This document shows positions 33,305 to 64,000 of a stretch of DNA of 64,000 nt, piece by piece; positions within the stretch are counted from its first letter, which is position 1, and each line of letters starts with the position of its first letter. Position numbers and translations under genes: made by a program. The notes under the pieces are model-generated. The model did not search any database. It saw only the letters and a list, made by a program, of their open reading frames with translations, and was not told the origin of the DNA. Origin of the DNA: Pegea sp. RAD2-039 (lineage: Eukaryota; Chordata; Thaliacea; Salpida; Salpidae); assembly GCA_034620365.1 (NCBI GenBank), contig JAQGEQ010000045.1:620001-684000 (forward strand), given 5' to 3'.

Positions 33305-35252
33305 ATGGATAATTTTCATAAAATTGAAAAAATTGGAGAAGGAACTTATGGAGTTGTTTATAAAGCTCTTAATAAAAAAACTGGGAAGACTGTGGCTGTA
33401 AAAAAGATCCGTTTAGATGTGTAAGTCTTCAAAATCATAAATATTTTACAATTATAAAATTTATATCTTTTTAATGTTTCAATGGTTTATTTAAAAGTTT
33501 AATTTTTCACTTAAATTGAATAATAAAATATTTTTTATATTTTTATTTTAGAGAAACTGAAGGAGTTCCTAGTACAGCTATTCGAGAAGTCTCTCTTCTT
33601 AAAGAACTAGATCATCCAAACGTTATCAAGTAAATTTGATATATTTCTATTTAGCCATTAAACTTACTTCATTATGATCATACTTAAAATCAATCTTATT
33701 ATTTAGAATAATGGATGTTCTATATGCTGAGACTAATTTAAATATTGTCTTTGAATATCTTAACCAAGATCTAAAAAAGTACATGGACTCACAGCCTGAT
33801 GGCCTGCCTCTAAACCTGGCCAAGGTCAGATTGGACTTTAATTTTTAGTTTTCAAAATCATAGAATTTGAGTATAATTATAAATTATTATCTTTTTATAG
33901 AGCTACGTTAAACAATTGCTTGAAGGAATTGCATATTGCCATTCACATTGTGTTTTACATCGCGATCTAAAACCACAAAATCTTTTAGTTGATGCTGAAG
34001 GGTTTATTAAATTAGCTGATTTTGGTTTAGCTAGGACTGTGGGAATACCAGTAAGAATGCTCTCTCACGAAGTAAGACTTTTTTTTTACATCTTTAGCAC
34101 TTCTAACATTTTATTATAGGTGATTACTTTATGGTATCGTCCACCTGAAATATTACTCGGACAAAAGAAGTATTCTGCATCAGTAGATTTATGGAGTATT
34201 GGCTGCATATTTGCTGAAATGGTAACTTTGAATTTTTATCAGTTGCGAGTTACATTGATTCAGACACATTCTGTCAATCGACATACTTTTGTGGGGTTTT
34301 GAAGGTAGCTACGAAAATGGCCTTTTTCAAGTTGGGTTTAGTTTTCAAAGTAAATGGGGGAATTTTAGAGAAATTTCTCCATAAAAGCAGTCTTTAAAAG
34401 GCGATCTGCCATCAGGTTTCATCTCAGATCCTCATCTTCTTCTAAAATCTTCTGAGACTCCCTTCATGATACTCTAGGTCGTTTCTAAATATAGTTTTAG
34501 CTTCTGTGATGATGTTGATCTCTGAGATGCTAAGAAGTCGTAAAAATCAGATCAAGATGAGCGTTGAAGGGTGCTTTTGTAATTCAGAACTGTTTTGTGA
34601 TCGTTTTTTTTCAACAATTTTTGCTCTAAAAACTGCTGAAGTTGTAACTCATTGGTTTAAATGAAGAAAGAAGTTGCTAGGGACCTAACAATCACTTCTA
34701 CAGCTTCTATCGTAGATTTCCGGGGGTTTCTTGCTTCAAGCAAACTACTAATTGATAAGATATTATGAGGAGCAAAAAAAGAAGTCTTGAGTACATCTAA
34801 AGTCAACTTGTCAAAATAATCCTGGTTTTCTGTTAAAGGTGAACAAAAAGACTCTTTTTCCTGGCGACTCTGAGATTGATCAGCTCTTCCGCATCTTTCG
34901 AACTTTGGGGACTCCAACTGAAGAGGTGTGGTCAGGCGTCACTAACCTCCCTGATTATAAAGACACATTCCCAGTTTGGCCACGAGCCCCTATTCCGGAG
35001 GTGCTGCCGAAGTTTGATCTTCAATCCATTCAACTTATCGAGGTTTGTTTCATCTTTTTTAAAGTTTTTAATCATTTGAGTTCCTTGTAAAGTCTTCTAA
35101 ACTCTTTCTACAACAAAAAATCACTTTTAATGAATCTTCTTTTTCAGCAACTACTTCTATATGATCCAGCGCATCGGATATCAGCTAAATCCGCTCTTCT
35201 TTATCCAGTTTTTGAAAACATCAGCTTTCCGAAACCTAATTTTAGCAATTAA
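33305..35252 (+). CDS. CDK2: CDK2-like PSTAIRE cyclin-dependent kinase
   Basis: A Ser/Thr kinase that binds cyclins to drive the G1/S and S phases. Exons are 33305-33420, 33552-33629, 33707-33824, 33901-34071, 34120-34221, 34839-35042 and 35148-35252. All have GT/AG ends and together give 297 residues (human CDK2 has 298). Seen in order: [11 protein letters not shown] with inhibitory Thr14/Tyr15, catalytic Lys33, an exact PSTAIRE helix in [11 protein letters not shown] (the CDK2/3 form rather than CDK1's EEGV), HRDLKPQN (Asp126), DFG (Asp144), [10 protein letters not shown] and [18 protein letters not shown]. The T-loop reads RMLSHEV where human CDK2 has RTYTHEV, so the CAK-site Thr160 is replaced by Ser159 and the two residues before it differ. 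An AG acceptor at 33295-33296 sits only 8 nt before the ATG. Exons 6-7 and intron 5 look less AT-rich than exons 1-5. CDK3 is the alternative name. Confidence 0.93.
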
Positions 35253-36344: not shown

Positions 36345-39300
36345 TTAAACCAAATGGAATCCTTGATTAAACTTGATAGCCTGCAAAAGTTTTTCTTTTA
36401 AGACATCAACTGAGGAATAAATGGGCAAATCGAGTATATTAAAACAAGTATGAGCGACTGGTAGGTAGTTATCATCAACATTGACAGATTGGATTGTTAT
36501 CTTAACACCGTTTATAGGTATCTTATTTGAACCTGTTAGAAACAACAAAAACTGTTTCTTCTCTTCAAGTGAAAGACGGTGGAAAACCACCCAAAATCTT
36601 TCAATTACAGGATGTTGTCTATAATAAATCCCTTTATAATCTGTGGATTTCTCTAAATCGTCCCAATTGTAATTCTGATTTCCAACAACCATCTCCATAA
36701 GCTCCATCGGTCGAAATAGGTTTAGTATATTACCTCCACAAACCTTGTGGAAACCATCACTAAATGCTTGGAACTGACGTTGAACCGAATCATTAAACAG
36801 ATGAGATATATAACGTTGTACGTACTCTTCACGGTTTGATTTATTCACAGGAATGTTTGAACCATTTGGAATTAAATCTACTGTTATATTTTCACCATAG
36901 TTGTCTTTATCAATACTAAATGTAAGACAAAAAACATCTTCAATGCTCTGATTTTCAGTTTCTTCAAATTCTAACAAAATTTTCATGCTGTTGTACATAG
37001 TAGGGTCAAGATCTCGTAAATCTATCAGGTTTACAGACTCACCTAATAGCTTACGATATAATGCTAAAGGAAAGCAGATATCTATGATGGTACTGTTGTA
37101 GATAGCCAGGCCACAGATTAGACCGATTAAAAAATACATTCCATCGCTTTCTAGTTGAATATCAACAAACCACATCAAACCACTTTCGGTGTAGTTTCTA
37201 AACATTCCATATTTAGGGTCTAATATTTCTTTCAATATCAACATAAAAAACTCTTTCCGGACGCCACCGGCATCTTCGCCTTCTTCGCCTTGAAATCTAA
37301 CCATCAGAGGCTTTTTTAAACTCTCCATTCGAACTAAACCAAGTTGGTTTAAAGTATTATTCACGATGTCATCGCGTTTCACTTCTAGCTCTAAACGAGG
37401 TTGTTCTAAATCAGGTGCTTCTGAATTTCGATAAAATGAAGCAACGTTTCGACTTTGAGCGCTGAAAAAAGCAGCTTTCATTTGGTAGTGAGCATCTATT
37501 TTCAAAAGTTCAGATTTGATTGTTGAGTTTAATAAAAACGGATAGTTACAAAAAATCGGTTTTTTATCATTTTTTCTGACAAATTCTAAATAATCTTCTT
37601 CAAGTTTTATCAACTCTGATAATTCATTAATGTAAAACTTCTGGTAAGGAACTATAAGTTGTCCTTCTATCATATTTACATTATGAAGTTTCTTCATAAC
37701 TTCAAGAGAGCTCTTAGTCACATTTTCAACATCACTATACAAGAAAGGTTTTTTCAAGACTTCAATAATCATCTCTTTGTAAGTATCCACGATTGATAAC
37801 AAGTAAGTAGACTCAAGCGATCGAAACCATTTATCTAGAATCGTTGTTGCTTTTTTACTCAAAGCCAATAGCTTAAGTGAGAAAGGGTGAGTTAATAAGT
37901 TATAAAACTTCTTTTGTCTAAACAAAGGACACTCTAAAAGAAAGATATATAAACGAAGTGATTCAATATCAGGTGGATTAGAAGATAAACCTGAAATTAA
38001 ATGTCCTGAGAGATTAGAAGATATAATCTCTACAATTCCAGGAAGCTTTGATCTGCATAATTTACTAAATCCGAGTCTGGCCGCCATCATGCTAACACCT
38101 GAGTAAGTTGGTGATGTTTTTTCATGATCAGTAGATAAAAAACAAGTATTTAAACATGATTGTGAACTCATCACTGTTGTTAAAGTCTCCAAATAACGTA
38201 AAACAGTTGCATTTCCTATTTCTGCATTGGAAAGAGTTGAAATTAGCTCACTTGATAAAGTACAAATCCGTAAAGATGTGGACTCATATGCAATTAACTT
38301 ATTTTTAGAAACACATATTATTGATGAGTTCCCACCAGCTACTAAATTCAAGCAATTATCAAGTTTTTCTTCCATAGTAGATGAGTTTCTTGTGAAATGC
38401 ACTGCTTTTTCATCTGTGCAACTTTGAGACCACGGCCCATTGAGAGAAAAAGGTAAAAAGTTGGTTTTACTACTACCCTCATAACCAAGTTGATTTTGTG
38501 TGTTTTCACCAAAAGTATAAACTTGATTTTTATCACCAACAAGCACAACTGTGTGGTTTCTTCCACACGCCACTTGACTCACATTACTACCCATCAATTC
38601 AAAGACTTTTTGAGGATTTACATTATGAAGACCAGCAGATGTCCCATGTCCTAACTGTCCATGTTCATTTGAACCAAATGTAAACACCCCACCATCATCA
38701 GTTAAAAGTACTGAATGTAGTTTTCCAGCTGTAATATACTTAACTTTTTGGTGACGTTTAATAGAGCTAAGACGAGTTGGTAGCCATTTATTTACTGTAT
38801 CACCCACACCTAACTGTCCCATATCATTCCGACCCCAACCAAACACAGTACCAGACAGTGTAAGAGCAAAATTATGAAAATATCCAGCTGCTATATGTAA
38901 AAATGGGATGCCAACTAACGTTTTTAATTGTGTAATACTACTAGTTGATATGTCCTGGCCAATGCCAAGTTGACCAAATTCATTGCTACCTGTGGACCAA
39001 ACAGTCCCATTTGATAATAAAAATAAAGAGTGTGAGTGACCACATGCAATTGAGGACACATGTAATTGGGTAGGAAAATATTTGATGAGTTTTGGTTTTG
39101 TTATTAAAGTCACATCTATAAAACCTAGCTGGTTATTATCATTTTTACCCCATCCATAAACCCTCATCTGTTCATCTACTACAAGTATGTGAGCGCCACC
39201 AACTTTTATATATTTTATAGTGACAGTTTCTAAGTACTTTACTTTGGTTGTTTCAGTAGAATGTCCAAGTATTTCTGGGAAATTGCCAAAAGTATGCAAA

Positions 39301-39464
39301 GAGCCATCACTATTTAATATTGCAAATATATTTTCATTACATACAATATCTACAGGTTGATGTGAATGAAAAAGATGACTCAATTTCAAAATTGATTCAC
39401 CATTTCTAATTTGTTCTTGAATGTCTTGTAAAAAATCAGTATCACCATATTTAAACAAAGTCAT
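36345..39464 (-). CDS. HERC4: HERC4-like HECT E3 ubiquitin ligase, intronless
   Basis: A cytosolic E3 ligase that accepts ubiquitin on a HECT cysteine and passes it to substrates. One uninterrupted 1039-codon frame (human HERC4 is about 1057 residues). Residues 40-350 hold an RCC1 propeller with repeats such as GWGKNDNNQLG, STGSNEFGQLG, GWGRNDMGQLG and TFGSNEHGQLGHG, each followed by a GxxH-type strand. The C-terminal third is a HECT domain: FQGEEGEDAGGVRKEFF, DPKYGMFRNYTESGL, and near the end AHTCFNILDLP with the catalytic Cys at about residue 1007. An acceptor-like TTACATAAG lies 9 nt before the ATG. The lack of introns contrasts with the intron-rich genes around it and may mark an old retrocopy. 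HERC3 is the nearest alternative; HERC1/2 are far larger. Confidence 0.93.
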   Translation of the reverse strand: MTLFKYGDTDFLQDIQEQIRNGESILKLSHLFHSHQPVDIVCNENIFAILNSDGSLHTFGNFPEILGHSTETTKVKYLETVTIKYIKVGGAHILVVDEQMRVYGWGKNDNNQLGFIDVTLITKPKLIKYFPTQLHVSSIACGHSHSLFLLSNGTVWSTGSNEFGQLGIGQDISTSSITQLKTLVGIPFLHIAAGYFHNFALTLSGTVFGWGRNDMGQLGVGDTVNKWLPTRLSSIKRHQKVKYITAGKLHSVLLTDDGGVFTFGSNEHGQLGHGTSAGLHNVNPQKVFELMGSNVSQVACGRNHTVVLVGDKNQVYTFGENTQNQLGYEGSSKTNFLPFSLNGPWSQSCTDEKAVHFTRNSSTMEEKLDNCLNLVAGGNSSIICVSKNKLIAYESTSLRICTLSSELISTLSNAEIGNATVLRYLETLTTVMSSQSCLNTCFLSTDHEKTSPTYSGVSMMAARLGFSKLCRSKLPGIVEIISSNLSGHLISGLSSNPPDIESLRLYIFLLECPLFRQKKFYNLLTHPFSLKLLALSKKATTILDKWFRSLESTYLLSIVDTYKEMIIEVLKKPFLYSDVENVTKSSLEVMKKLHNVNMIEGQLIVPYQKFYINELSELIKLEEDYLEFVRKNDKKPIFCNYPFLLNSTIKSELLKIDAHYQMKAAFFSAQSRNVASFYRNSEAPDLEQPRLELEVKRDDIVNNTLNQLGLVRMESLKKPLMVRFQGEEGEDAGGVRKEFFMLILKEILDPKYGMFRNYTESGLMWFVDIQLESDGMYFLIGLICGLAIYNSTIIDICFPLALYRKLLGESVNLIDLRDLDPTMYNSMKILLEFEETENQSIEDVFCLTFSIDKDNYGENITVDLIPNGSNIPVNKSNREEYVQRYISHLFNDSVQRQFQAFSDGFHKVCGGNILNLFRPMELMEMVVGNQNYNWDDLEKSTDYKGIYYRQHPVIERFWVVFHRLSLEEKKQFLLFLTGSNKIPINGVKITIQSVNVDDNYLPVAHTCFNILDLPIYSSVDVLKEKLLQAIKFNQGFHLV

Positions 39465-42044
39465 TTTAATATCCTTATGTAAGAAAATTCAATAGATTGT
39501 TATTCAGGATAAAAACATAAAATTGTTGATTGAAATAGTTTATTCTGAGCCAAATCAAAAACCAAACTTTTAAAATCAGAACATACAATGATTTTAAGAT
39601 TATTTTAAAAAAATCAAACAATATTTTTTTAACAAAATATTATATTAGAAAGTAACATTTTTACATAGCTAGTTAAATCATCAACAATATCATAAAAACA
39701 AATATTTATACACATAATAAGACAACAAATAAATAATGAAATAATTGATAAAAATAGATAAAAATAGATGTAAATAAATACAATTCTATAAAGTTCAAAT
39801 TAATAGATGAAATGAATGAGAACAATAAAGAAAAAATGAAATATAAGACCTTCAAAAGTAACTTGACCAATTCTAAGAAAGAAAAGACTAATTATTTGTA
39901 AAATCAAGTCTAAAATAGTAATAATAAAGATTTCATAAACAAATATTAATCAAATTCAAACTTTGAATCACTTAAATACAAAACTAACAAAGATTAAACA
40001 GTTATATAATAAACATAATATTTTGACTAAATCATTTTGTAAAGAAACTAGGAAATAGTATATGTTAGTGTAATTATTACCATCAATTTAATCAGCTTAA
40101 TACTTTAAAAGTTATAAGAAATCATAAAAATATGAGAATTGAAAAAAACCTTCAAAAAAAAACAAAAAAAATAAGAATAATTTGAAAAATAAGCAAAGAT
40201 AAAATAACCATTTTAATTTAAGTCAAATTTGTAAACTTAAAATAAGTAAGTTTTGTACAAAAATACATTTTTTAATAATAAATAAAAGCATTTGGCAATT
40301 TAGATAATTGCATAATATACAAGCTAAAAGTTTGTAAAAAAACACCATTTTTAAAACTATTTCAACTAACTAACAAAAACTATCTTTGATAGTATTCAAA
40401 CTATTATTTATTATTTTTTTATCTATGAAATATAATCATTCAAATTGCAAGGTTTTTGTATGAAAAATAAAAAAATTTGATTCATAAATACAGTTTATAC
40501 CAAAGTAAACTTTCAAATAAATTCTAATTACGCCTATCAGTGTTGGTAAGTCATAACAAAGTTGTAAATATGTTAAACTTTACAAAGGTTTTGCTATTTA
40601 CATAAGTAATTATGACAATATATCATTCATAATAAAAAATTAGTTTAATATTTTTTCTTTATTCTAACTAATCGCAATAATCAAGTAATATTTTACAGAA
40701 TTTAATTTTATCAACTATCAATTTTTAATGATCAGCCGTAAAATACAAATGAATAAGAAATATTTCTTCTTATAAAACGGTAAAATAAAGAATTATAATA
40801 TAGGAAGTAAGGAAGTTAATTTAATCAACATTTTTTATGAATTTTTGTTTCTAAACTTACTTTACTTTCAAAAGTAATAGTAACTGCTTCAGCGATGACT
40901 TAAAAATCACATGAATGAAAAACCACTCGTTTTTACTTTGATTATGCACGACCATAAGGCTTCAAATCTAAATAACCCTTAACTTTGATTTGTAAGCTCT
41001 ATATTAGCTATTTTGCAGAAGTTATTTAAATAGCTGGGCTTTTTGTGGCTAGTAAGGGTCTCTAGCATTGTTGATCATCAAATATAGATCTTTTCATGAT
41101 AGTAGAGATGTTAAATCTTTCAACTAAGGTAGTGCTATAAAGTTATTTCTTTAAAGGCATTGTAATGTATTTAACATTGTGTAATGACTTCTCTGTGCTA
41201 ACATCACTATTATCTTATATCTTACATGAGTGTACCATTTATATAAAAATTTTAATCAAATTATAACCTTCAAATTTAAATATTATTAAAATTTTTAAAA
41301 AATGTTGATTAAATTTCCATAATAATTATGCATTATAGTTTTTAGACTACAAAATGCTGTGCCAATTATAAATAAAGCTTTTTTGTCAGCAAAAAGGCAT
41401 AATATCTAAAATAGATAGTAAAGCACGGTTAAAATAAAAGATTTGATTGAATCATGTAATTTGATGTTTAAAACTTTCATACAAATATTTATTTCTAAAA
41501 AACTTTTACCTTTAATGAAATGTAAACTGTAGAACAATTAATTTAAACATTATTAATATTTAATTGTATATTCTGTTGTTTACCTTATATAATAATTATA
41601 TTACAAATATATTTTGATAACTCTTTGCCAAGTATTTTAAATTTTATCTTATCTAGAATGTTTGTTTATCAGATTTTTTTTCTTAAGAATTTAATTTTTG
41701 ATTTCAAGAAAAATATTTTCTTGTTTTATAAAATGGCATTTGTTATGATGAGATAACATTTAAAGAGTTGTTTAAAGATACTTTATTATTATTGAAAATA
41801 TTCTTTTGTATTATTTATATTATAATCTTTAATTATGGATCAAAATTAATAATAAATTTACAATATGAAATATTTTGAAACATAAAAATTAATTAAGATA
41901 ACATTTTTGTAACTCTATAAATTTATGAAATAATTTTGTAATATTAAAAAAAATTATAAAGTTTAAATTTGATTATTTTACTCTATAAGAAGCTCATAAA
42001 TAAAAATCAAACTTTCTTTTAACTATAGAGGAAGTAGAAACAAA
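39465..42044. other. Divergent intergenic region between HERC4 and Canopy
   Basis: About 2.6 kb of AT-rich DNA with no coding stretch recognised. It must hold the upstream regions of both genes. Splice acceptors close to both start codons (39475-39474 on the minus strand, 42027-42028 on the plus strand) suggest that leader exons or trans-splicing precede both. Confidence 0.55.
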
Positions 42045-48808: not shown

Positions 48809-51305
48809 ATGTATTTTACTGCGGAAGAAATCCTAGGGAAGGGCCTGGGTTTAAAAGCATCTCAAAACATAAAAGTAGGAACAAAAGTAATGATTGAAGA
48901 ACCATTTGTGTATGCTTTCACACCAGAAGAGAGAAAAAGCTGTTGTCAAACGTGTCTTACAGAGTAACTTGTGATTTTTTTATTAATTTATTCAATTATT
49001 TTACATTTTTGATGATTTTTAATTCCAGGAAAACTTTATTTATCTTTTTTATATTCCAATTATTTATCTTACCTTTTTGTGATTAATGTTTATTTTCTAA
49101 AGTTGATTATTTTATTTTTAGATCTAAACAACTAAAAGCTTGCTCAGGATGCTTAAGATGTTTTTATTGTAGTAGAGAATGCCAGGTAATTTTTGTTTGA
49201 TACAAATATTTGTTTTGTGATCAGAAATTTCTCTAATATGTTTTTTATTTTGGTAATCAAATGAGTTATACTTTTTGAGAAGAAGTCTGCTGCATTCTTT
49301 TTCTATCTTTTCTTTACTCTTAGATTTATATTTATGAAAACAGAGTATATCTATAAAAGAAAACAGCTTTTATTGAAATCTCATTTACAAATATTAGTAG
49401 TGGCTTTCTGAACATAAAACAAACATTTATTTTAAGACAAATTCAGAATTTAAGACTTTTTTATGTCTACATCAATTAAATTTCTTTTGAGTTTATTAAT
49501 TTATTCTTAGAAAAAAAGTTGGCCTTTACATAAACATGAATGTAAACAATTGAAAATATATAAAGATGTGGACCAACTATCTGATCTAAGTTTGATTTTT
49601 GCAAGAGTAATGAATAATCTTGTAAGTAGGAGATTTGTCATCTTCTTAATAAAACTGGTTCAAAAAATGATTTAATTTAGAATATTTATGATAATAATTT
49701 TAAGCTGCTTTGTTTTTGTTATAGAAACTAAATATTGATGGGAAAGAAAGTCATCTAAGAGATATTTTTGATCTTAAATATAGTAAGATATGATCTTAAC
49801 TTTATTACATTTATGGTTGTAGCTCATTTCTCAAAGTGAAAAAAAGTAATTTGATAAAAATTCATTTATTTTCAGCATTTGAATCATCAACTAGAGATAT
49901 TCAAGTAAAACTTGGAAAGGTTTTGATGAATTCTGTACCAATATTCAAAAATTTTCCCACAAAAATATCAAATGCTAAAGAAGCCCTTCAACTTTTGTCT
50001 GCAGTAAGTCACTTTTATGTCTCTAAAACTTTTTTACATCTTCAATTTATTCTAAAGTCAATATTTAAGTTACAAATGTCACTAATTACTGAGAATAACA
50101 TTTACTAGATGTTTTTATGATAAAAACTCAATTATTTGCAGATTAAAAGTAATGTTTTTACAATACGTAGTGTGCAAAGAGATTCTCCTATAGGATGTGG
50201 GCTTTTTCTAAAGTAAGAGATTAGAACTTATAAAAGTCCTTCTTCAGTAGTTAGCATTTTGTATATACAGCACAAGTTTATTAAATCATGATTGCAACCC
50301 AAACTGCTTCTACTGTTTTGAAAATAAAAATCTTATTGTTACTGCAATTCGTGATATTAAATGTGGTGAAGAGGTATTTTAATCTATTAAAAGTTAGTAT
50401 ATATTTGATGGTTTTTATGTTCTAGTTATCGATTCCATATATAGTGACTTTAAATACAACTGATGAAAGACGAAAAGAATTAAAAGAGATTTTCAACTTT
50501 GATTGTTGCTGTACAAGTTGTCAGTCAAAATTTCAAGTTAGTTTTCATTCATTTACCTCAAACTGTATGGAGCTGACTTCAAATATTATTAGGATGAAGA
50601 GATGTTAGCCGGTGGATTATCTGGAAATAGATTGATTGAAGTTAAAGAAATTATTAAAAAACTGGAGTTGGCTACTAGAAAGCAATTAAAAGATTTGGAA
50701 CTTGCTAATAATTTGAAAATTGCTAAAAATACTCTAAAACTCCTGAATAATGTTCCAGATACTTATGTTTACAAGATAAAGGTTAAAATATTTTTATAAT
50801 ATTTCAAATTTGAAAAATTCAAAAATAATTTCTATCTTGAAGACATCATAGATGAAGTCATTGAGTTTTTTTTTCACTTTTTCAGCTTTTTACATTAGTT
50901 GCTCTCGTAGCAATCGATGCTGAAGACTTTTCACTAGCTTTAAAACTACATCAACAAAGCTTGGTTGGATTTAGGTAAATATTTGCTGAAAAATTAAAAA
51001 AAAATCTCATTTAAATCTTTTTGTAGAAAATATTTTCCCAAATATCACCCTCAGCTTGCAGTTCAATATTTAAAAATAGGAAAATTGTTGATGAGAGAAG
51101 AAAAATATAAAGAAGCTGATGTCATGTTAGATCAGGTTGATCAATATTGTTTCTAATATGTAGGATTGAGTGATAATAATCAATTAAATCTTTTTAGGCT
51201 GTTGAAATATCGAAAGTTCTTTATACGCCGAAAAGTGAATTTCTACAAGAAGCCATTTTGCTCTCTTGTGAATGTAGATTAGAGTTAAGAGCCATAAAAA
51301 GTTGA
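48809..51305 (+). CDS. SMYD3: SMYD3-like SET and MYND domain lysine methyltransferase (intact copy)
   Basis: SMYD3 methylates lysines on histones and cytoplasmic kinases using S-adenosylmethionine. Twelve exons: 48809-48963, 49122-49185, 49511-49621, 49725-49782, 49876-50003, 50142-50212, 50271-50373, 50426-50536, 50593-50781, 50886-50974, 51027-51135 and 51198-51305. They give 431 residues (human SMYD3 has 428). The SET N-part has GKGLGLKA. MYND zinc ligands are C46/C49, C59/C62, C68/C72 and H80/C84. The SET core has LNHDCNPNC (about 200-208) and CGEELSIPY. Post-SET cysteines are DCCCTSC. The TPR-like C-terminal part has FPKYHPQLAVQYLKIGKL, matching the SMYD3 pattern. An acceptor AG at 48791-48792 lies 16 nt before the ATG. 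Introns are short, 50-330 nt. Confidence 0.9.
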
Positions 51306-52930: not shown

Positions 52931-55900
52931 AATTAAAAACATATTTTTATAAGTATTACAATTTTTCTATTATTTATATGATATATTATTATATCATTAG
53001 TATACTTAACAATCTATGTTATATTGTATGGGGCTAATGAAAAGCCACGTGTCACATCTTTTTATCTATATTTCCATATTTTATTATATATTATGTATTA
53101 TTTTGTATAATATTGTTTGTGAGAATGTATGTTACCATCCTTTTCATTTATTATAATAAGTAATTTTTTATCATGATTTTTACAAACCTGTAGTTACATG
53201 AAAATTTATTCTTATTTATTGATTGGTATTTATTGATTTATTCAATATTTAAGTATTAATTTTTAGTTTATTTAGGTTGTACTTGATTTATAGTTAATAT
53301 CACAAAGTCATGTATTTTACTGTGGAAGAAATCCTAGGGAAGGGACTGGGTTTAAAAGCATCTCAAAACATAAAAGTAGGAACAAAAGTAATGATTGAAG
53401 AACCATTTGTGTATGCTTTCACACCAGAAGAGAGAAAAAGCTGTTGTCAAACGTGTCTTACAGAGTAACTTGTGATTTTTTTATTAATTTATTCAATTAT
53501 TTTACATTTTTGATGATTTTTAATTCCAGGAAAACTTTATTTATCTTTTTTATATTCCAATTATTTATCTTACCTTTTTGTGATTAATGTTTATTTTCTA
53601 AAGTTGATTATTTTATTTTTAGATCTAAACAACTAAAAGCTTGCTCAGGATGCTTAAGATGTTTTTATTGTAGTAGAGAATGCCAGGTAATTTTTGTTTG
53701 ATACAAATATTTGTTTTGTGATCAGAAATTTCTCTAATATGTTTTTTATTTTGGTAATCAAATGAGTTATACTTTTTGAGAAGAAGTCTGCTGCATTCTT
53801 TTTCTATCTTTTCTTTACTCTTAGATTTATATTTATGAAAACAGAGTATATCTATAAAAGAAAACAGCTTTTATTGAAATCTCATTTCCAAATATTAATA
53901 GTGGCTTTCTGAACATAAAACAAACATTTATTTTAAGACAAATTCAGAATTTAAGACTTTTTTATGTCTACATTAATTAAATTTCTTTTGAGTTTATTAA
54001 TTTATTCTTAGAAAAAAAGTTGGCCTTTACATAAACATGAATGTAAACAATTGAAAATATATAAAGATGTGGACCAACTATCTGATCTAAGTTTGATTTT
54101 TGCAAGAGTAATGAATAAACTTGTAAGTAGGAGATTTGTCATCTTCTTAATAAAACTGGTTCAAAAAATGATTTAATTTAGAATATTTATGATAATAATT
54201 TTAAGCTGCTTTGTTTTTGTTATAGAAACTAAATATTGATGGGAAAGAAAGTCATCTAAGAGATATTTTTGATCTTAAATATAGTAAGATATGATCTTAA
54301 CTTTATTACATTTATGGTTGTAGCTCATTTCTCAAAGTGAAAAAAAGTAATTTGATAAAAATTCATTTATTTTCAGCATTTGAATCATCAACTAGAGATA
54401 TTCAAGTAAAACTTGGAAAGGTTTTGATGAATTCTGTACCAATATTCAAAAATTTTCCCACAAAAATATCAAATGCTAAAGAAGCCTTCAACTTTTGTCT
54501 GCAGTAAGTCACTTTTATGTCTCTAAAACTTTTTTACATCTTCAATTTATTCTAAAGTCAATATTTAAGTTACAAATGTCACTAATTACTGAGAATAACA
54601 TTTACTAGATGTTTTTATGATAAAAACTCAATTATTTGCAGATTAAAAGTAATGTTTTTACAATACGTAGTGTGCAAACAGTTTCTCCTATAGGATGTGG
54701 GCTTTTTCTAAAGTAAGAGATTAGAACTTATAAAAGTCCTTCTTCAGTAGTTAGCATTTTGTATATACAGCACAAGTTTATTAAATCATGATTGCAACCC
54801 AAACTGCTTCTACTGTTTTGAAAATAAAAATCTTATTGTTACTGCAATTCGTGATATTAAATGTGGTGAAGAGGTATTTTAATCTATTAAAAGTTAGTAT
54901 ATATTTGATGGTTTTTATGTTCTAGTTATCGATTCCATATATAGCGACTTTAAATACAACTGATGAAAGACGAAAAAAATTAAAAGAGATTTTCAACTTT
55001 GATTGTTGCTGTACAAGTTGTCAGTCAAAATTTCAAGTTAGTTTTCATTCATTTACCTCAAACTGTATGGAGCTGACTTCAAATATTATTAGGATGAAGA
55101 GATGTTAGCCGGTGGATTATCTGGAAATAGATTGATTGAAGTTAAAGAAATTATTAAAAAACTGGAGTTGGCTACTAGAAAGCAATTAAAAGATTTGGAA
55201 CTTGCTAATAATTTGAAAATTGCTAAAAATACTCTAAAACTCCTGAATAATGTTCCAGATACTTATGTTTACAAGATAAAGGTTAAAATATTTTTATAAT
55301 ATTTCAAATTTGAAAAATTCAAAAATAATTTCTATCTTGAAGACATCATAGATGAAGTCATTGAGTTTTTTTTTCACTTTTTCAGCTTTTTACATTAGTT
55401 GCTTTCCTAGCAATCGATGCTGAAGACTTTTCACTAGCTTTAAAACTACATCAACAAAGCTTGGTTGGATTTAGGTAAATATTTGCTGAAAAATTAAAAA
55501 AAAATCTCATTTAAATCTTTTTGTAGAAAATATTTTCCCAAATATCACCCTCAGCTTGCAGTTCAATATTTAAATATAGGAAAATTGTTGATGAGAGAAG
55601 AAAAATATAAAGAAGCTGATGTCATGTTAGATCAGGTTGATCAATATTGTTTCTAATATGTAGGATTGAGTGATAATAATCAATTAAATCTTTTTAGGCT
55701 GTTGAAATATCGAAAGTTCTTTATACGCCGAAAAGTGAATTTCTACAAGAAGCCATTTTGCTCTCTTGTGAATGTAGATTAGAGTTAAGAGCCATAAAAA
55801 GTTGAAACCTTACTTAAAGCTTTCATTCCTTTTGTATATATTAACAGATGTAACTTGATTTCTATGAGTCATCATTAACTATAAATAAGAAGATTATTCA

Positions 55901-57433
55901 GAGCCTAAAGTCAATTTGTATGAAAAAAATATTTAAAGATGATCTGAAATAAGAGACCCGGCTGTCTATCTAGGTTAAAGAAAGTTTAGTTCGCAAAGCA
56001 TGTCATATACTGACCTACTAAGTTAGAATTTGATCTGATTTGGCAGCTTGTACATTTGTAGGTGTACAAATTTCCACCTGTGCGTTTTCTAATCTCGCCA
56101 ATAAAATATGTTCTTATCACTAATAAATGGTAATATTTATTAGAAGGTTTTTTTGGTAAGTTATTACAATTCGAAAGTAATATCAATAACTTCCTTATTT
56201 TATTTATATTATAAAGATTTATAAATTTAAACAAATGAGTTAACTTTCCCTCATATCTCCAGCTGTCTTCAATAAAATTATTTTAAACTAAGCAACAAAT
56301 TTGTTTTGTTAAAGAGCAAATAATTTTTTTAGTTTTAAAATTGATGAAGCAGGTTTAAGAAGAAAGTAGAATTCTTCTTTTAATAAAGTAAAACTGGAAT
56401 TGCCAATAATTAAAGCAATAAAATTCACCTAAAAGTAAGCTGAGCTGTTTGACAAAAGTAAATACCTCAGTTGAAATACCGCCAGTAGTGATAATACTTT
56501 GAAAAGTAATTATATTTAATCGGGAGAAAAAAAAAACAATTAAGTTTTTAAAGCAATACAGTCAATGTCGTACATTTGCAATATTTATGCAACTTTAAAC
56601 ACCCATTAATGAAATAGCAATGATTCTTTATAAGGAGCTACATTCAAATAAATAAGGTAATTAACACAACGATAAATAGATATTTCATTCAACACATTTA
56701 CATCAGCAGTAAAATACTTTACTGTTTTACATTTCAAATGTATAATAATTTTCAAACCAGTAATTTGACTTGAATTGCCGGCATCACTTTTAAATTAAAG
56801 TCCTGTTTCGGCTGAGAATGGCTATGCTGGTTGTGCTCAAGAGGTGTTGTTAAAACGAAGCAAGATTCAATTAAATATAAAAGAAAATACTCAAAAAAAT
56901 TTTAAAAAATGTATGACAGAGTATAATGAATCATTTTAAATATACACCGTTTATATGCTTATAGGAAGATGCAAGCATGAAAGAATGAGCTTCTCAATAT
57001 TTGTAAGGGTATCTGTGCTTCTCAGTTCATTTTGTATACGCAGCATGTCAAATTTTACAGCTTCGTGGATATTTTAAACTCTTAGTTAGAGTTCAGCATT
57101 TTAAGCTACAATTATCGATTTTGATAAAGTGACAATTATTAAATCTTAAATGTATTGGAAATTCTACGCGCTTTTTATCGTAATTATAAAAGTTATATTA
57201 TAAATGATTATATTTAGTATTTATAATATATATGCAAAGACACTGTTTATCCTTTTTAGTATAAATTGAAATTTGTTATATTTTTATTCTAAACTTTAAA
57301 TTATAATAAACTTTGTAAACTGCAATAAATAATTTTAAGAATTTTTATTTATTAACTACGGCACATAATTAAAAGATTCGCTACTATCAAGCAGATTAGA
57401 TACAGTAAGACTCTTCAAATTTCTTATATAATT
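52931..57433 (+). repeat. 4.5 kb tandem duplication, copy 2
   Basis: Head-to-tail second copy. The offset from copy 1 is 4502 at the left, 4501 after a one-G indel (48530s) and 4500 after the one-base loss in the SMYD3 coding sequence. Either a very recent tandem duplication or two haplotypes joined in assembly. Confidence 0.93.
53310..55805 (+). pseudogene. SMYD3-like gene, second copy, with a coding frameshift
   Basis: Exons correspond one to one with copy 1: 53310-53464, 53623-53686, 54012-54122, 54226-54283, 54377-54503, 54642-54712, 54771-54873, 54926-55036, 55093-55281, 55386-55474, 55527-55635 and 55698-55805. In exon 5 one C of a CCC run is missing (54485-54486, where copy 1 has CCC at 49984-49986). 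With normal splicing the frame is lost and ends in exon 6, before the NHxCxPN catalytic motif, leaving only the MYND and early SET part. All splice sites are preserved. At least nine other codons differ in amino acid (for example A5V, N109K, E248K, K376N) against one silent change that I saw. If the missing C is a sequencing error, this is a second functional copy. Confidence 0.65.
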
Positions 57434-57756
57434 TGTTTACTTTTTATTAAAAAAAATTATAGTTGAAAAAACATGGTTACTACCTTTATTGCTGTTTAGT
57501 TTATGTGTTTTTATTACTTTATTCGAACTAACTTTTTTTAACTAGAGACTGCTACGAGACTAATTTAAAATTGCGGATGAATATATAAAGCAAACTTCAA
57601 ACAGGCTATTTTTCTTTAATATTTAATAAATTAAAAATATTTTCTAGTTTTCATGTATAATAAATGTAAAATAACGTTTTTATTTCATAGAAATAAGTTA
57701 AACAGTGTTGTTTGTTAAAATAATCAAAGAAAGTAGTTCCTCAAAATCAAATACCA
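57434..57756. other. Intergenic region upstream of the CREB promoter
   Basis: AT-rich sequence between the right border of the duplication and the CRE-rich block. No gene is recognised. Confidence 0.5.
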
Positions 57757-57865
57757 TGACGTTTCTTGTATTTTTCTGTGGTGACGCGATTTATGTCATT
57801 TGACGCGGTGTTACGTAGCAAAGCTCGTGTCCAGTGGGAAGCAGCATTTCAACACGACACAACTA
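57757..57865 (+). promoter_or_regulatory. CREB promoter and untranslated first exon with clustered CRE half-sites
   Basis: A local CpG-richer island in AT-rich DNA. TGACG half-sites lie at 57757, 57782 and 57801, with TTACGTAG at 57811. A consensus donor AC|GTAAGT begins at 57866. Joined to the acceptor at 59284-59285, it forms a 5' UTR intron of 1.4 kb ahead of the CREB start codon. The transcription start cannot be fixed by eye. Mammalian CREB1 is also controlled by CREs in its own promoter. Confidence 0.55.
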
Positions 57866-59285
57866 CGTAAGTACGACATCAAAACAAAACCACGCTTTCA
57901 TTAAGGGGTAGAACAGCCTGGTTACTTTGTTACGATTTTTTTTTATATAACTTTATATACTAAGTTGTTCTGCCTTGTGTTTTTAGAGTAAGCTTATTTT
58001 GTTAGCCCATTAGCCTGTATTAAACAAAAGCTTAAATTCAAGTTGTTGATAAGCCTGATGTTTCTGATTTTCAGTCTTTTAGCCATTATTTAAAAGGATG
58101 CTTTTTAATGGAATTAGTAGAGTCATGAACAATTTAAATGAATTGACGTTTTTGTGTATTATCATCTTTAATACATATTTCTAAATGAAAAGTTAAAGAT
58201 GTTATATACCAAGTTTTTCCTCACCTACAGCTACCTAATTATAGGTAAACTACTTCATGATATAATTGAACAAAATATAAAACATTTCAATTTATGGCTA
58301 GTATATACTAATATAGGATTATAAGTTAAGAATGTAAGTGATTAAACCTAATCTTTAAAACTTACATTTTACAACTTTTTACACAAATATAAATTTTAGA
58401 GTTTGTTTAATTTCTTTATTATTTTTAGCTTTCTAAAATAATTAGATAATTGCTTGATATATATTCTTATTTAATTGTTGTTTTGTGTAAATTACGTTAT
58501 ACAAGCTGTTAATATTTAGCTGCTAATGTATTCAAATTTATTTGTTTTTGGTAATCATTTATGGAATACATTATATTCAAATTGTATTTATACTTATTTA
58601 TTTTTTTCTGGTTGAAATTGAATGGTATTTTATGAGCTTTTATATATTTCTTATTATATATTTTTATAGATAAGCTGAAAATTAAAGCTTATTTAATTAG
58701 AATTAAATTAATTAAATAGTTTTATTTATTGTTATTATAATAAGAAATATTACTTATTATTTATTCAAAATTATATTAATATTATGTGATGTTACTAATG
58801 GTTTGATAATATAATGAATTTATATTTGCTTGCAATTTATAATTAAACTTAAGTTGCATTTTATGGTTTTATTTCTTATCATTATTATAAACATGGTATA
58901 TATATAATAACTTCATTTAGATTTGGTAGATTATATAGATACATACAGATATATTATACTTTAGGGATTATGAAATAATTTTTGTTGTCAAAACTTGGAT
59001 ATTGTTTAAGATTTTTGAAGACCAAAAGTTACTTTTTGTTTATTTAGTCCATTTGATGTTTTGTTATTGAAATTTAATGTTAATATTTTTTATGATGTTT
59101 TATACAAAGTTGTAGTTTCAATAGTATATCAAAATTATTTAAAAGTTGATTATAAAATAATCAGTTAAAGTCTTAATATATTGATTTTACTGCATAGTAA
59201 GAAGCTTTTTTTCTGGTAAACTTTCTCATTATATCAATTACTTATTAATTATTTTGATGTTTATCAAATGTTTTATTTACTGCAG

Positions 59286-59369
59286 AAATCTATAAAGACC
59301 ATGGATTCCATTGTTACAGAATCAAATGTAAATGACGATAGGTCATCTGCCCAAATCCAAATACATGTT
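59286..59369 (+). CDS. CREB: CREB exon with start codon
   Basis: Acceptor TTTACTGCAG, 15 nt of leader, then 23 codons from ATG 59301 ending QIQIHV at a GTT|GTGAGT donor, phase 0. Confidence 0.88.
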
Positions 59370-62300
59370 GTGAGTTTTTGTTTATATATTTTTTGTTTAC
59401 ATTTCTATCAGAGATTTTATAGATAATTTATTCTTGTTTATATTCAGAACAAATTTTAGTGTATAGTCTCTAAGCTATTGAGTTTTAGTGTTGCAGAAAT
59501 GTATTATTTTTAGCTGAATTTATTTTTATAGGCAGATTTATGTGAAAATACTGAGAATTAACTGTCATAATATTCAATAGTATTTTTTCCAACAACTTAG
59601 TTCAGTTTTTCTGAAATCTATCTATCTCATGTATTTGAACATGTGTATTTAGAATTTAGACAGGTTAGTATGTTAAGCTACAATTAAACAGTTGTTTATT
59701 TAGCTAGTGATTGTTTAAGAACATTTAGTAATATTTTTTTGTTCAGATGATTTAATCTTTTTATTTCTTAGCCTAAAATATATTTTTTCTCATCAAATTT
59801 TTTGTGTTAAAAAGTTATTTTATCATTTGGATTATTTCAACTATTTTATGTAATTTAGATTCTTATAAGTTATATAACAACAAAAAATATTTAGATAAAT
59901 TTTCTTATTCTATAATCTTATTAATTTGATTTTAAGTTCACTTAATTTTGTCAAAACTTTTCTAGTTACAAGTGATGTAGCTTTTAAATACTTTTCATAT
60001 TTTCTAACATTATCAGATTATTTTCAATTTACTCTGACATCTGTCTAAAAAGTTTATTTTAAACTTGATAAAGTTTTGTGTTATTGAAATTATATAATTA
60101 TCTCTTGTGTTATTAATCAAATAAATAAAGAAAATATTTGCTTAATTAGAAAGTTCATATTTACTAATCTTTTAGACTTTAAATAGTTTTTAGTGAATCG
60201 TACTATTTTTTATTTTGTTGTTTGTAAATTATTTCAGAGAAAAAGAGATTATATTTAAATAAGATAAAATAAATTTTTTTTATATTTTAATTAAACTTGT
60301 ATTTTTATACTTGTAATTAGTATAGCAAAGTCACTTAACATATTAGATAAACAGGAAAGCGGCAACAGCAAGCTGTTTACTCCACCATATTTCTTTCATC
60401 CCATAAATTTTCTTTCATTTGATTTATTGAAGGAAGGGAAAGTGAGCAGGTAGGCGAGAGGTGGTGGCAGCAACTGTATTGACTTTCAATTTGTCACTTG
60501 TACATGAAATCTTTTATCAGTTTGTTTTATTGTTGAAAAATATCTCTGATTTATTATTTATTAAAGATAAAGTGTGATAATTATAAGGAAGTACTTCCTT
60601 CCTGTACCATATACACCTAAGGTAATCAAATGGTAGATAGCTACTGTTTTTTACCAAGCAGTCTGATTGTCACTAGTGGTGATAAAGACAAGTATTTAGT
60701 AGTTTGTTTTTATGTATGTTTAATATCAGTTTAAGTTGAGGTTAGCCACAGTATTTTGAGTATGTTTGAATAAAATATACAGCGTAACTAGTCGATGTTA
60801 CTTTCTGAAACTTAGTAGATTATAATGTTTTGTTTTAAAGTTTTTTTTTTGACTATTGTCAAGATTGATTTTTTTGTATAACAGGTTGACATTAGGTAGG
60901 TTATGCAGGGTTTAATAGGTAGTGTTATTTGCTGATAGGTTGTAGATTTATGTCTAGTTGGTTTGGAGTTGAAAGTAAACTATGATGAGTATGTTGCCTC
61001 ATATTGAAGAGTGGGTAAGCGAAAAGATGTTAGATGTGTGAAGATATCATTTATTCTTTTTAAATTTCACAAATATCTCATAAATAATCTTGTATGGAAT
61101 CAAATTAGTTTTTCTTTTTCAGTCGGGTGCTGCTGGTGGGGATCCTCAAATTGTAACTATGCCTCTGACAATGGCTAATGCTATATCTGGGCAAGGACAA
61201 ACGCTATTAGCTTCAAATAATCAGCAACAAACAGTTACTCAAGCACCTGGTACTACACAAGTATGTCACTAAAAAACCACAAATAGTTTGTAGTATAAAA
61301 GTCTGGCTTCTATTTAAAAGTACAATCACTTTACTGTGTTTGATGCTATGATTGTTTTTAATTTTTTCCTTCATAGAATAGTTTTTTTAAATTGTTTTTC
61401 AGGACCCTGCTAAGAGACGAGAGATATTATCGAGAAGACCGTCATACAGGTGAGATAGACAGTTTATCAATTCTAATATTTATAATAAATTGTTACTAAA
61501 CCATATGTGTATGAAATATATCTGCAGTAACTTACTTGCTTCCTTGTAAAACGGAAACGCCTTAAACTATTTGGCACAAACCTCATTAGTTATCTGTTGA
61601 AGTAATTTTCATGTATGTTCAGCCAATGGACATCTGTTTTAGCATTTATCTAGTTTTAATTTAGAAGTTTGAGTTTTTTTTATTTATTAAATGGCGTCGT
61701 TGTCGTTCAGTGTAATATTAATTGTATTTAATTCACGTTCCATTTGTTTTTTTTCTTTTTTATGTGTACTTTAACTCTACCATGTCATACTGTCCTGGAG
61801 TTTATTTTGTTATTCTTTCTCAAGTCTTTGAATATTTGATTAAATAGTGTTTTTGAAATATAAAATCAAGCTATCAACTTTCAGAAATATTTTTCACAGA
61901 TTTAATTGCTTTGTCTCGAATTTCATAGCTAGATACAATTTCATCAGTTTTATAGTTTTCGAAAAACAGATGAATAAAAAAATAAACTTTCTTCAGACAG
62001 AGAAGGGTAATGAGTTGTTAAGCTTGTCTCTAATTACATCACTTTCACTTCTACGATTGCATTCTAACTCTAATTGGTCTACTTTGTTTTGAAGCAAGCA
62101 GTTTTCATTCAAAATCTTTTCAACATTAAGACATTGAAACTAAACTTAGTTGTTATTGAAAAGTCGTCTGTAAACAAATGTCATTTTGATCTTCAGTAAG
62201 GTTTTTACTCGCCGGCAGTTTCATCTTTTCGACTGGTTTCTATTTTCTAATGTTTTTCTCGGATAAACATATTTGTGTAATATCTTGAAACTTTGTTTGC

Positions 62301-62892
62301 TGATATCATTTCCTTTTATTTAGGATGATATGATGTAAACATGCGTTAATTGGCTGGTGGGCGAGGTTATTTGTTAGTTACTTATATCAATGACGCAAGC
62401 CTTATTTGCAAGTGGCAGTTTTTTTGCAGATAATTTTATGTTTATTAAGCATTTTCCCGGCATTGTGCTCATTTTAGAATTGTATTCAACAAAGAAACTG
62501 ATATATTTCAGTCTTTAGAAGTAGTTTTTAGAGAGTAATTATTGAGTTTTGGTTGATCAGAATGGAAATGTACGGAACTAACCCGTATTATAACTCATAC
62601 GAGAATGATCAAACTTATAAATGGTGAGACTTTGTGAATTCTAATCTAATGAAAAGGTTTTAATTGTTTACTAATCAATTTGTTGTAAATATTCTCTCTT
62701 CATCACCTCTATTTGTAATCAGGAAAATATTGAATGAGCTATCTGGTCCTCCTGAAGTTGGATCAAGAGTTAAAGATGAACCCAGTGGAGGAAGCAAGTC
62801 GTCAGAAAGTTCAGAATCTGATTCAGGAAGTCAAGGTATGACATCAATGCAACCACCAACCGCTATTGCTTACCAAACAGGAAGCGGTACTG
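59301..62892 (+). CDS. CREB: CREB transcription factor, N-terminal half (bZIP beyond right edge)
   Basis: The nuclear bZIP activator that recruits CBP/p300 after phosphorylation of the KID domain. Coding exons: 59301-59369, 61123-61260, 61403-61449 and 62723-62892, with optional exon 62561-62623. The N terminus (MDSIVTESNVNDD) is followed by a Gln-rich activation segment (about 24-69: SGQGQTLLASNNQQQ). The KID follows with RREILSRRPSYRKILNELSG, carrying the PKA/CaMK Ser of RRPSY at about residue 83 (human Ser133) and the upstream GSK3 Ser. A Ser/Glu cluster (KSSESSESDSGSQ) comes next. The start has a good context (AAAGACCATGG), 15 nt after an acceptor. The last exon exits in phase 1 at ACTG|GTAAGA. 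The second Gln-rich segment and the bZIP are outside the window. The family call is firm; ATF1 and CREM were not separate genes before vertebrates. Confidence 0.93.
60355..60441 (+). CDS. Candidate in-frame cassette exon in CREB
   Basis: A less AT-rich patch in the second CREB intron. It is open for exactly 29 codons between an AAACAG acceptor and a GGGAAA|GTGAGC donor, phase 0 at both ends, so inclusion would keep the frame. The peptide begins ESGNSKLFTPPYFFHP. The pyrimidine tract is poor and no homologue is recognised, so this is a weak call. Confidence 0.25.
61123..61260 (+). CDS. CREB: CREB Gln-rich activation exon
   Basis: Acceptor TTTTTCTTTTTCAG, 46 codons in phase 0-0, donor CAA|GTATGT. 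Gln-rich, with small hydrophobic residues, like the Q1 domain of vertebrate CREB. Confidence 0.9.
61403..61449 (+). CDS. CREB: CREB KID phosphorylation-site exon
   Basis: A 47-nt exon encoding DPAKRREILSRRPSY plus two bases of the next Arg codon, with a TTGTTTTTCAG acceptor and a CAG|GTGAGA donor. It holds the PKA-target Ser and KID helix A. Confidence 0.92.
62391..62398 (+). promoter_or_regulatory. CRE/C-EBP composite-like site TGACGCAA
   Basis: A CRE half-site fused to a C/EBP half-site, 171 bp upstream of the internal ATG at 62562. It could belong to an internal CREB promoter. Confidence 0.3.
62561..62623 (+). CDS. CREB: Optional CREB exon between the two KID helices (internal first exon or 63-nt cassette)
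   Basis: A GATCAG acceptor-like site, then an ATG at 62562 opening MEMYGTNPYYNSYENDQ, closing at AAATG|GTGAGA in phase 2. Joined to 62723 it gives a Trp codon and continues KILNELSG in frame. Read as a cassette after the RRPSY exon it also keeps frame (AG plus A gives Arg; 63 nt equals 21 codons). The segment is Tyr/Asn-rich and less AT-rich than its flanks. As a first exon it yields a CREB without the phosphorylation Ser; as a cassette it separates KID helix A from helix B. Confidence 0.55.
62723..62892 (+). CDS. CREB: CREB KID helix B and acidic/Ser-rich exon
   Basis: Acceptor TTTGTAATCAG; encodes KILNELSGPPEVGS, then VKDEPSGG (a SUMO-type motif VKDE) and a Ser/Glu cluster. Donor ACTG|GTAAGA, phase 1. 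Confidence 0.9.
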
Positions 62893-64000
62893 GTAAGACT
62901 TTTTCATATGGCAATAATAATTTCTTTTTCGTTGGTTTCTTTGAGGTATTAATTTATAAACCCTTTTTTTTATTTGATGTAGTTTCATCTTTGGTTGATA
63001 TCTAATCTTGTTTAGAAAGCAAAAGTTTGTCATCTACTTTTTATTTTTGAACTTGGAAACCTTTTCTGTAGTTTTGTGAACAAACAAGGGTTTATGTAGA
63101 GATGGTTTATAGAATTGATGAGATGTTAGACTGCTTCATGAATCGATTATATAAGATTAGTGATGACACTACAATTTTTCCTACTACACATTTCACTTTT
63201 TACAACCTTTTGCATAAATGCGAAATAACTAAATTATTTATTGGCATCTACCCAATAGTAAGAATTAAATAGATACAAGTATATTGATGTTTCTTGAGTT
63301 TGGTAAACAACACCGTTATTCTTCTAATTGTATCTTTTATGAGTTATTTACAAATTTTTTTGGTATTTGATGTCAACTTTTATGTTTCAAATGTTTATAG
63401 AATTGAATCAAAACTTTGTTGTTTGGAATCTACAAGTTTTGTGTCTCACTAAATCCTTTATTCACTCACATCTGCTCCTAATCTTTTGATGATCAAAAGA
63501 TTCAACTCCTCATTCTATTTGTATAAATCTCTTATTCATCTAACAGACAAATCTGTTTTCATTTCAATCAGAATCACCTAGCTGGTTGTGGCACCAAACT
63601 TTAACACAAACTCAAATTCTTTTGAAAGTAAACTCCTAATTTTTAAGTTTTTTTTATCAACAACTCGAGATAGATATCTTCAATCATTTTGTTCTTACAT
63701 ATCAATTCATGTTTCGTTTTTACCAAATTTGACATTTCTAAGAAAAAAAGAACTCAAATTTCTACTAATTTCCAATAATATTGGCATGAGTAATCCTGAT
63801 GTTTTGATTATAAGATCGTTCAACAATTTGCCAGCCTACCAATTAGATATTTGTTTGTTTGTTTGTTGTTATTATGGTCTCAACTTTTCTCTTTGTTTAT
63901 GTTATAGTATGAGAGGAAATCACTTTTGATAGACTAACAACATGTTACTTAAGTTACAAAATATTTCAATTTCTTTCAGCTTAATGCGACTGAAATATTT
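62893..64000 (+). other. CREB intron at right edge
   Basis: AT-rich, with Phe/Leu/Asn-rich frames only. A short (GTTT)n run lies at 63851-63866. An acceptor-like TTTCTTTCAG ends at 63979, but joining it in the required phase gives an immediate stop. No bZIP exon is present. Confidence 0.55.

Follow-up and report, generated by a model that had tools for sequence, protein, structure and literature searches.

A candidate alternative first exon within the KID-splitting intron of a CREB gene

Mammalian I-CREB, a repressor without the PKA site, comes from the CREB gene itself and arises by internal re-initiation after in-frame stops, not from a new start exon. Loss of the PKA box is already known, and common, among CREB-family repressors, and the internal-promoter route has a precedent in ICER. 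This repressor is described as the product of P2, an intronic, internal promoter of vertebrate CREM with a cluster of four CREs; it keeps mainly the DNA-binding domain and competes with activators for the CRE (PMC3941242). Among invertebrates, the C. elegans protein CRH-1f, a truncated CREB without the KID, has been termed a repressor isoform (PMC6774408), and the CREB1 repressor of Lymnaea, described as a splice isoform, has a bZIP without the P-box and heterodimerises with the activator (PMC3105992). CREB splice isoforms are described in Aplysia, Drosophila, and other animals (PMC11333461), and the P-box of mammalian Creb and Crem is reported to be encoded by two exons (PMC10454534). Titles and the opening parts of abstracts on cnidarian or alternative-exon CREB forms, mostly from non-subscription journals, describe no start exon inside the KID, which is a statement about those texts and not a claim of absence from print. 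The new points at the locus considered here are the peptide of a candidate start exon and the placement of that exon midway through the KID.

The window, the 64,000-nt stretch of DNA that was analysed, spans positions 620001-684000 of contig C14, has a GC content of 25.4% and contains a CREB gene on the plus strand that continues beyond the window end to the bZIP and stop, its exons joining in frame past position 64000. In window coordinates, run on past 64000, the exons lie at 59286-59369, 61123-61260, 61403-61449, 62723-62892, 64805-64918, 65017-65158, and 65227-65374. The first coding exon of the full-length form (MDSIVTES...IHV) has its ATG at 59301 and a start inferred from an AG; it is followed at 61123-61260 by an exon that is Q1-like by eye (SGAAGGDPQIV...GTTQ), placed by its in-frame join and coding score. 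The KID is divided between two exons. Its first half, DPAKRREILSRRPSYR, is encoded at 61403-61449, matches positions 7-23 of the pKID profile (34.9 bits), includes the PKA site, and ends in RRPSYR at an AG followed by a GTGAGA donor. The second half begins with G and then KILNELS (KILNELSG...) in the exon at 62723-62892, defined by exon joining, whose acceptor is common to all forms considered here. The intervening intron, 61450-62722, is 1273 nt long.

The full-length protein obtained by exon joining has 275 aa and no internal stops. It matches Pfam pKID over profile positions 6-41 with 58.5 bits (cut-off 25) and bZIP_1 with 70.8 bits. In a PDB search, its KID resembles the solved CREB KID peptides 2lxt and 1kdx, and its bZIP matches the CREB1 bZIP structure 5zko (E 5.4e-23). 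With both a pKID containing the PKA site and a C-terminal CREB bZIP, the gene belongs to the CREB/CREM/ATF1 family. A pKID profile search of the genome (105.7 Mb in 387 contigs) up to E 1 gave a single match, at contig positions 681400-681450, which is the exon ending in RRPSYR. One further locus was considered as a CREM-like second gene and set aside, as its open frame is Jun-like by eye; it was the best of 15 genomic bZIP matches, of which it and CREB were checked. Among possible phylum markers, COX1 and GFP gave no match, both results being uninformative, and 71 homeodomain matches fit an animal without pointing to a phylum; the earlier attribution to a hydrozoan is a guess.

Within the KID-splitting intron, the original prediction had pointed to a 63-nt open segment at 62561-62623, plus strand, with an AG immediately before it (62559-62560), an ATG at 62562-62564, and a GTGAGA donor at 62624-62629, and all of these features hold. 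The claim that it is in phase 2 at both ends, as is the RRPSYR/KILNELS junction, proved exact, the two flanking exons lie where they had been placed, and exon joining confirmed the frame calculations along with the two proteins predicted from them. The segment encodes MEMYGTNPYYNSYENDQTYK(W), and the hexamer of its donor is identical to that after RRPSYR. If it is a first exon, the predicted protein is MEMYGTNPYYNSYENDQTYKW-KILNELS..., a chain of 211 aa that begins MEMYG; if it is a cassette, the predicted protein is RRPSYR-MEMYGTNPYYNSYENDQTYKW-KILNELS, 296 aa. Neither contains internal stops. The first-exon form gives no pKID match up to E 1 and keeps bZIP_1 at 71.3 bits; it would retain KID helix B (KILNELS) along with the bZIP, while Q1, helix A, and the PKA site would be missing.

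Several searches around the candidate were negative. No second copy of its sequence or peptide was found in the genome, the first 29 residues of the first-exon form gave 0 matches in the PDB up to E 10, no repeats of at least 20 nt across 57000-64000 were reported overlapping it, and Rfam gave no match in the window at the gathering threshold. Bacterial-type scans, which are irrelevant to an animal gene, gave 6 promoter-like sites in the KID-splitting intron, where 6.2 are expected, and within the candidate, on its minus strand, 1 terminator-like site, where 0.3 are expected.

The composition and coding score of the segment bear on whether it is an exon or a chance open stretch within the intron. 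Its GC content is within the usual range for the intron; its base usage (A 43%, T 25%) differs from that of the surrounding intron (T 42%). Among 1086 windows in the KID-splitting intron, 1.1% are as poor in T and 1.2% show as strong an A/T skew; the corresponding values across all CREB introns are 1.5% and 1.0% of 6107 windows. The coding score was 6.4, 5.2, and 5.8 bits under three successive coding models: the training of the first included CREB and left out 12 of 22 listed kinase segments; the second left out CREB and the HECT gene and used 16 non-redundant kinase segments of 21 listed, from 30 kinase loci; the third included the HECT gene. The candidate has the top coding score among the 42 open AG..GT segments of the intron that are in phase 2 at both ends, and of the open 20-codon windows outside it, 0 of 250 in that intron and 1 of 1409 over all CREB introns match its score. 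On the antisense strand of the CREB introns this score is reached by 28 of 1034 open windows, so that A-richness accounts for part of it. Extending the frame upstream to the next phase-compatible AG (62533) lowers the score from 6.4 to 4.2 bits. At 5.8 bits over 20 codons the candidate yields 0.29 per codon, true CREB exons ranging from 0.05 to 0.57. The segment thus looks coding, although its signal, at 5-6 bits over 20 codons, is modest and partly due to base composition.

A chance origin would fit a candidate that is short, modest in coding score, and ordinary in its acceptor, and that had been picked by an earlier reader out of 64 kb. Against this, simulated introns equalled the candidate in both donor and coding score (under the model without CREB) in 7 of 3000 cases when an AG start was specified; the count was 3 when an ATG start was specified instead and 0 when both were, again out of 3000 each, although these rates are optimistic, since the simulated introns were assumed to be homogeneous. 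A filter applied to 94 kb of real sequence, on both strands and in any phase, retained segments whose ATG context is strong, whose donor scores at least 6.65, and whose coding score is at least 5.8. Nine passed: the candidate, three in annotated exons (of the CDK-type kinase, HECT/RCC1, and CREB genes), and five more. Two of these five, at one locus, match pyridoxal-dependent decarboxylase, one above the cut-off of 27 (44.3 bits) and one below it (23.9 bits); another matches ribosomal protein S8 with 22.6 bits, just below the cut-off of 24; the remaining two have no Pfam match, and one of them is low-complexity by eye. Six of the eight segments besides the candidate are therefore annotated exons or have Pfam support, and along with the simulations this makes a chance stretch an unlikely explanation.

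If the segment is an exon, its boundaries and start codon bear on how it would be used. The splice-site models draw on three genes, CREB, the CDK-type kinase gene, and the SMYD-like gene (the latter two by-eye readings), which together supplied 22 acceptors and 22 donors. The candidate donor scores 6.7, within the leave-one-out range of the 22 model donors (4.3-9.1), a level reached by 5 of the intron's 82 GTs, itself included. Its acceptor scores 6.5 within a range of -1.8 to 18.0 for the model acceptors, and AGs that score at least as well make up 16 of the 58 in the KID-splitting intron (again including itself) and 95 of the 309 in the CREB introns together. The donor is good and the acceptor is not distinctive. 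The intron contains 23 ATGs, and only the candidate start codon, in the context ATCAGAATGG, combines a purine at -3 with a G at +4.

Splicing of 62561-62623 as a cassette between 61449 and 62723 would insert 21 residues between RRPSYR and KILNELS, so that the PKA site would be kept and helix B shifted 21 residues away, which would weaken phosphorylation-dependent binding of CBP. The predicted protein has its pKID match cut to profile positions 6-24 (43.2 bits), from 6-41 (58.5 bits) in full-length CREB. The AG at 62559-62560, a length divisible by three, and a stop-free frame all suit a cassette, as does the 99-nt intron it would leave downstream, which is comparable to the 98, 68, and 142 nt introns of CREB. 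The phase match adds little, however: once the donor and an in-frame start codon are given, all it requires is an AG at -3/-2, whose A belongs to the strong start context anyway. Given that context, only the G at -2 has to be supplied for an AG to stand one base before the ATG, and the length of 63 nt is then a consequence. The acceptor score is matched or beaten by more than a quarter of the intron's AGs, only 7 of the 22 model acceptors score as low or lower, and there is a further AG at 62545-62546, 14 nt upstream. An ATG in strong context as the first codon of a cassette would have to be a coincidence, and the rarer one. A cassette is accordingly improbable, and the first-exon reading is preferred to it by about four to one on the unique strong ATG context, the ordinary acceptor, the good donor, and a CRE half-site upstream.

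The AG one base from the ATG might also receive a spliced leader, the leader RNA being joined at 62560/62561. Spliced leaders are described on many genes of Hydra (PMC7986045), which counts in favour of such trans-splicing, and by eye an AG stands 8-18 nt before the ATG of several genes in the window; for the start codons at 59301, 33305, 53310, and 42045, acceptor-like AGs lie 8-16 nt before them. There is no excess of such sites close to starts, however: of 20 start codons counted, 11 have an acceptor-like site scoring at least 5 within 0-25 nt, 11 have one at 26-50 nt, and 8 have one at 51-75 nt. A whole-genome search with the end of Hydra SL-B1, the sole leader searched, gave one match, which has 3 mismatches and lies within an exon that by eye encodes an Ig domain. 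We regard trans-splicing as very improbable. Taken together, composition, frame, and the coding, splice, and start scores suggest, with a probability of roughly 57%, that the segment at 62561-62623 forms the coding portion of an alternative first CREB exon. Of the proposal that the segment is a switch exon, the part that stands is that it looks coding, with the first-exon form fitting better; the cassette form is less favoured.

An alternative first exon would call for a promoter within the KID-splitting intron. The probable main CREB promoter contains three CRE half-sites at 57757-57806 on the plus strand (TGACG at 57757, 57782, and 57801), which are three of the 44 occurrences of TGACG/CGTCA in 84 kb, and GC content by this promoter is 47% at 57800-57899. 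Upstream of the candidate, a motif search found a CRE half-site, TGACGCAA, at 62391-62398 on the plus strand, 171 nt before the candidate ATG; it is the one TGACG half-site in that part of the intron, with no cluster. For the extended form TGACGC, the 84 kb contain 5 occurrences against 5.0 expected, so it is neither rarer nor commoner than chance would give. Two of these occurrences, at 57782 and 57801, precede the probable main first exon and one is in the KID-splitting intron, where 0.076 are expected. As the motif was picked after inspection, the half-site at 62391-62398 is only suggestive of a promoter element of the candidate. Counting against a first exon, there are just 2 CpGs at 62350-62449, and a simple pattern gave no TATA match in 62300-62600.

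For the first-exon form, we infer a route in which transcription would start from a promoter within the KID-splitting intron, translation would begin at ATG 62562, and splicing would join 62623 to 62723. The product would be the short CREB described above, with helix B, the downstream region, and the bZIP, and without the PKA serine. A bZIP protein without the PKA box is described as dimerising with the activator and competing for CREs (PMC3105992, PMC3941242). By analogy, the short form may dimerise with full-length CREB and occupy CREs while being unresponsive to cAMP, and CREB-driven transcription would therefore be damped. The upstream CRE half-site could let CREB induce the short form, providing feedback. 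A tentative and rather doubtful extension is that the only pKID-type CREB gene found here holds a CREB-responsive intronic promoter and a start exon in the middle of the KID, so that a single gene would give both the cAMP-driven activator and its feedback repressor, as an ICER-like circuit that has no CREM gene beside it.

The predicted short form resembles ICER in its retained DNA-binding domain, being without the PKA site while keeping the bZIP, and would likewise compete with activators for the CRE; it may also resemble ICER in starting from an internal intronic promoter with CRE sequence, here a putative one. It differs in having one half-site where P2 has four clustered CREs, and in its position in a gene that also encodes full-length CREB and is the only pKID match found, whereas ICER comes from CREM. 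ICER also starts further downstream than the candidate form. As with I-CREB, the CREB gene itself would be the source of a repressor without the PKA site, although I-CREB depends on re-initiation and the candidate on a new start exon. With CRH-1f, as that protein is described, it would share the nature of a truncated repressor form of an invertebrate CREB, but the candidate form breaks inside the KID and keeps helix B, whereas CRH-1f is without the KID. The reported Lymnaea repressor likewise has a bZIP without the PKA box; there it is a splice isoform, whereas an internal first exon is proposed here.

If real, the candidate would be an internal start exon that switches CREB off in an animal with one pKID gene found, and the boundary it uses would be the intron inside the KID; in mammalian Creb and Crem, too, the P-box is described as encoded by two exons (PMC10454534). 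It supplies an exact junction to seek in the transcriptomes of other animals. If it is instead a cassette, it would provide a natural test of the distance tolerated between helix B and the phosphoserine.

Other genes are also present in the window. A SET-domain gene occurs in near-identical tandem copies at 49800-51282 and 54301-55782, 4.5 kb apart, with a SET match of 39.4 bits at 54751-54882, and is SMYD methyltransferase-like by eye. The minus strand has a HERC-like open frame at 36345-39488, whose 1047 residues include a HECT domain as well as RCC1 repeats. The CDK-type kinase gene at 33305-35252, which formed part of the splice-site training, has about seven exons by eye. The genome as a whole has at least 137 Pkinase matches, and protein kinase genes are clustered on contigs C75, C265, C260, and C21, many of them with the whole domain in a single open frame.
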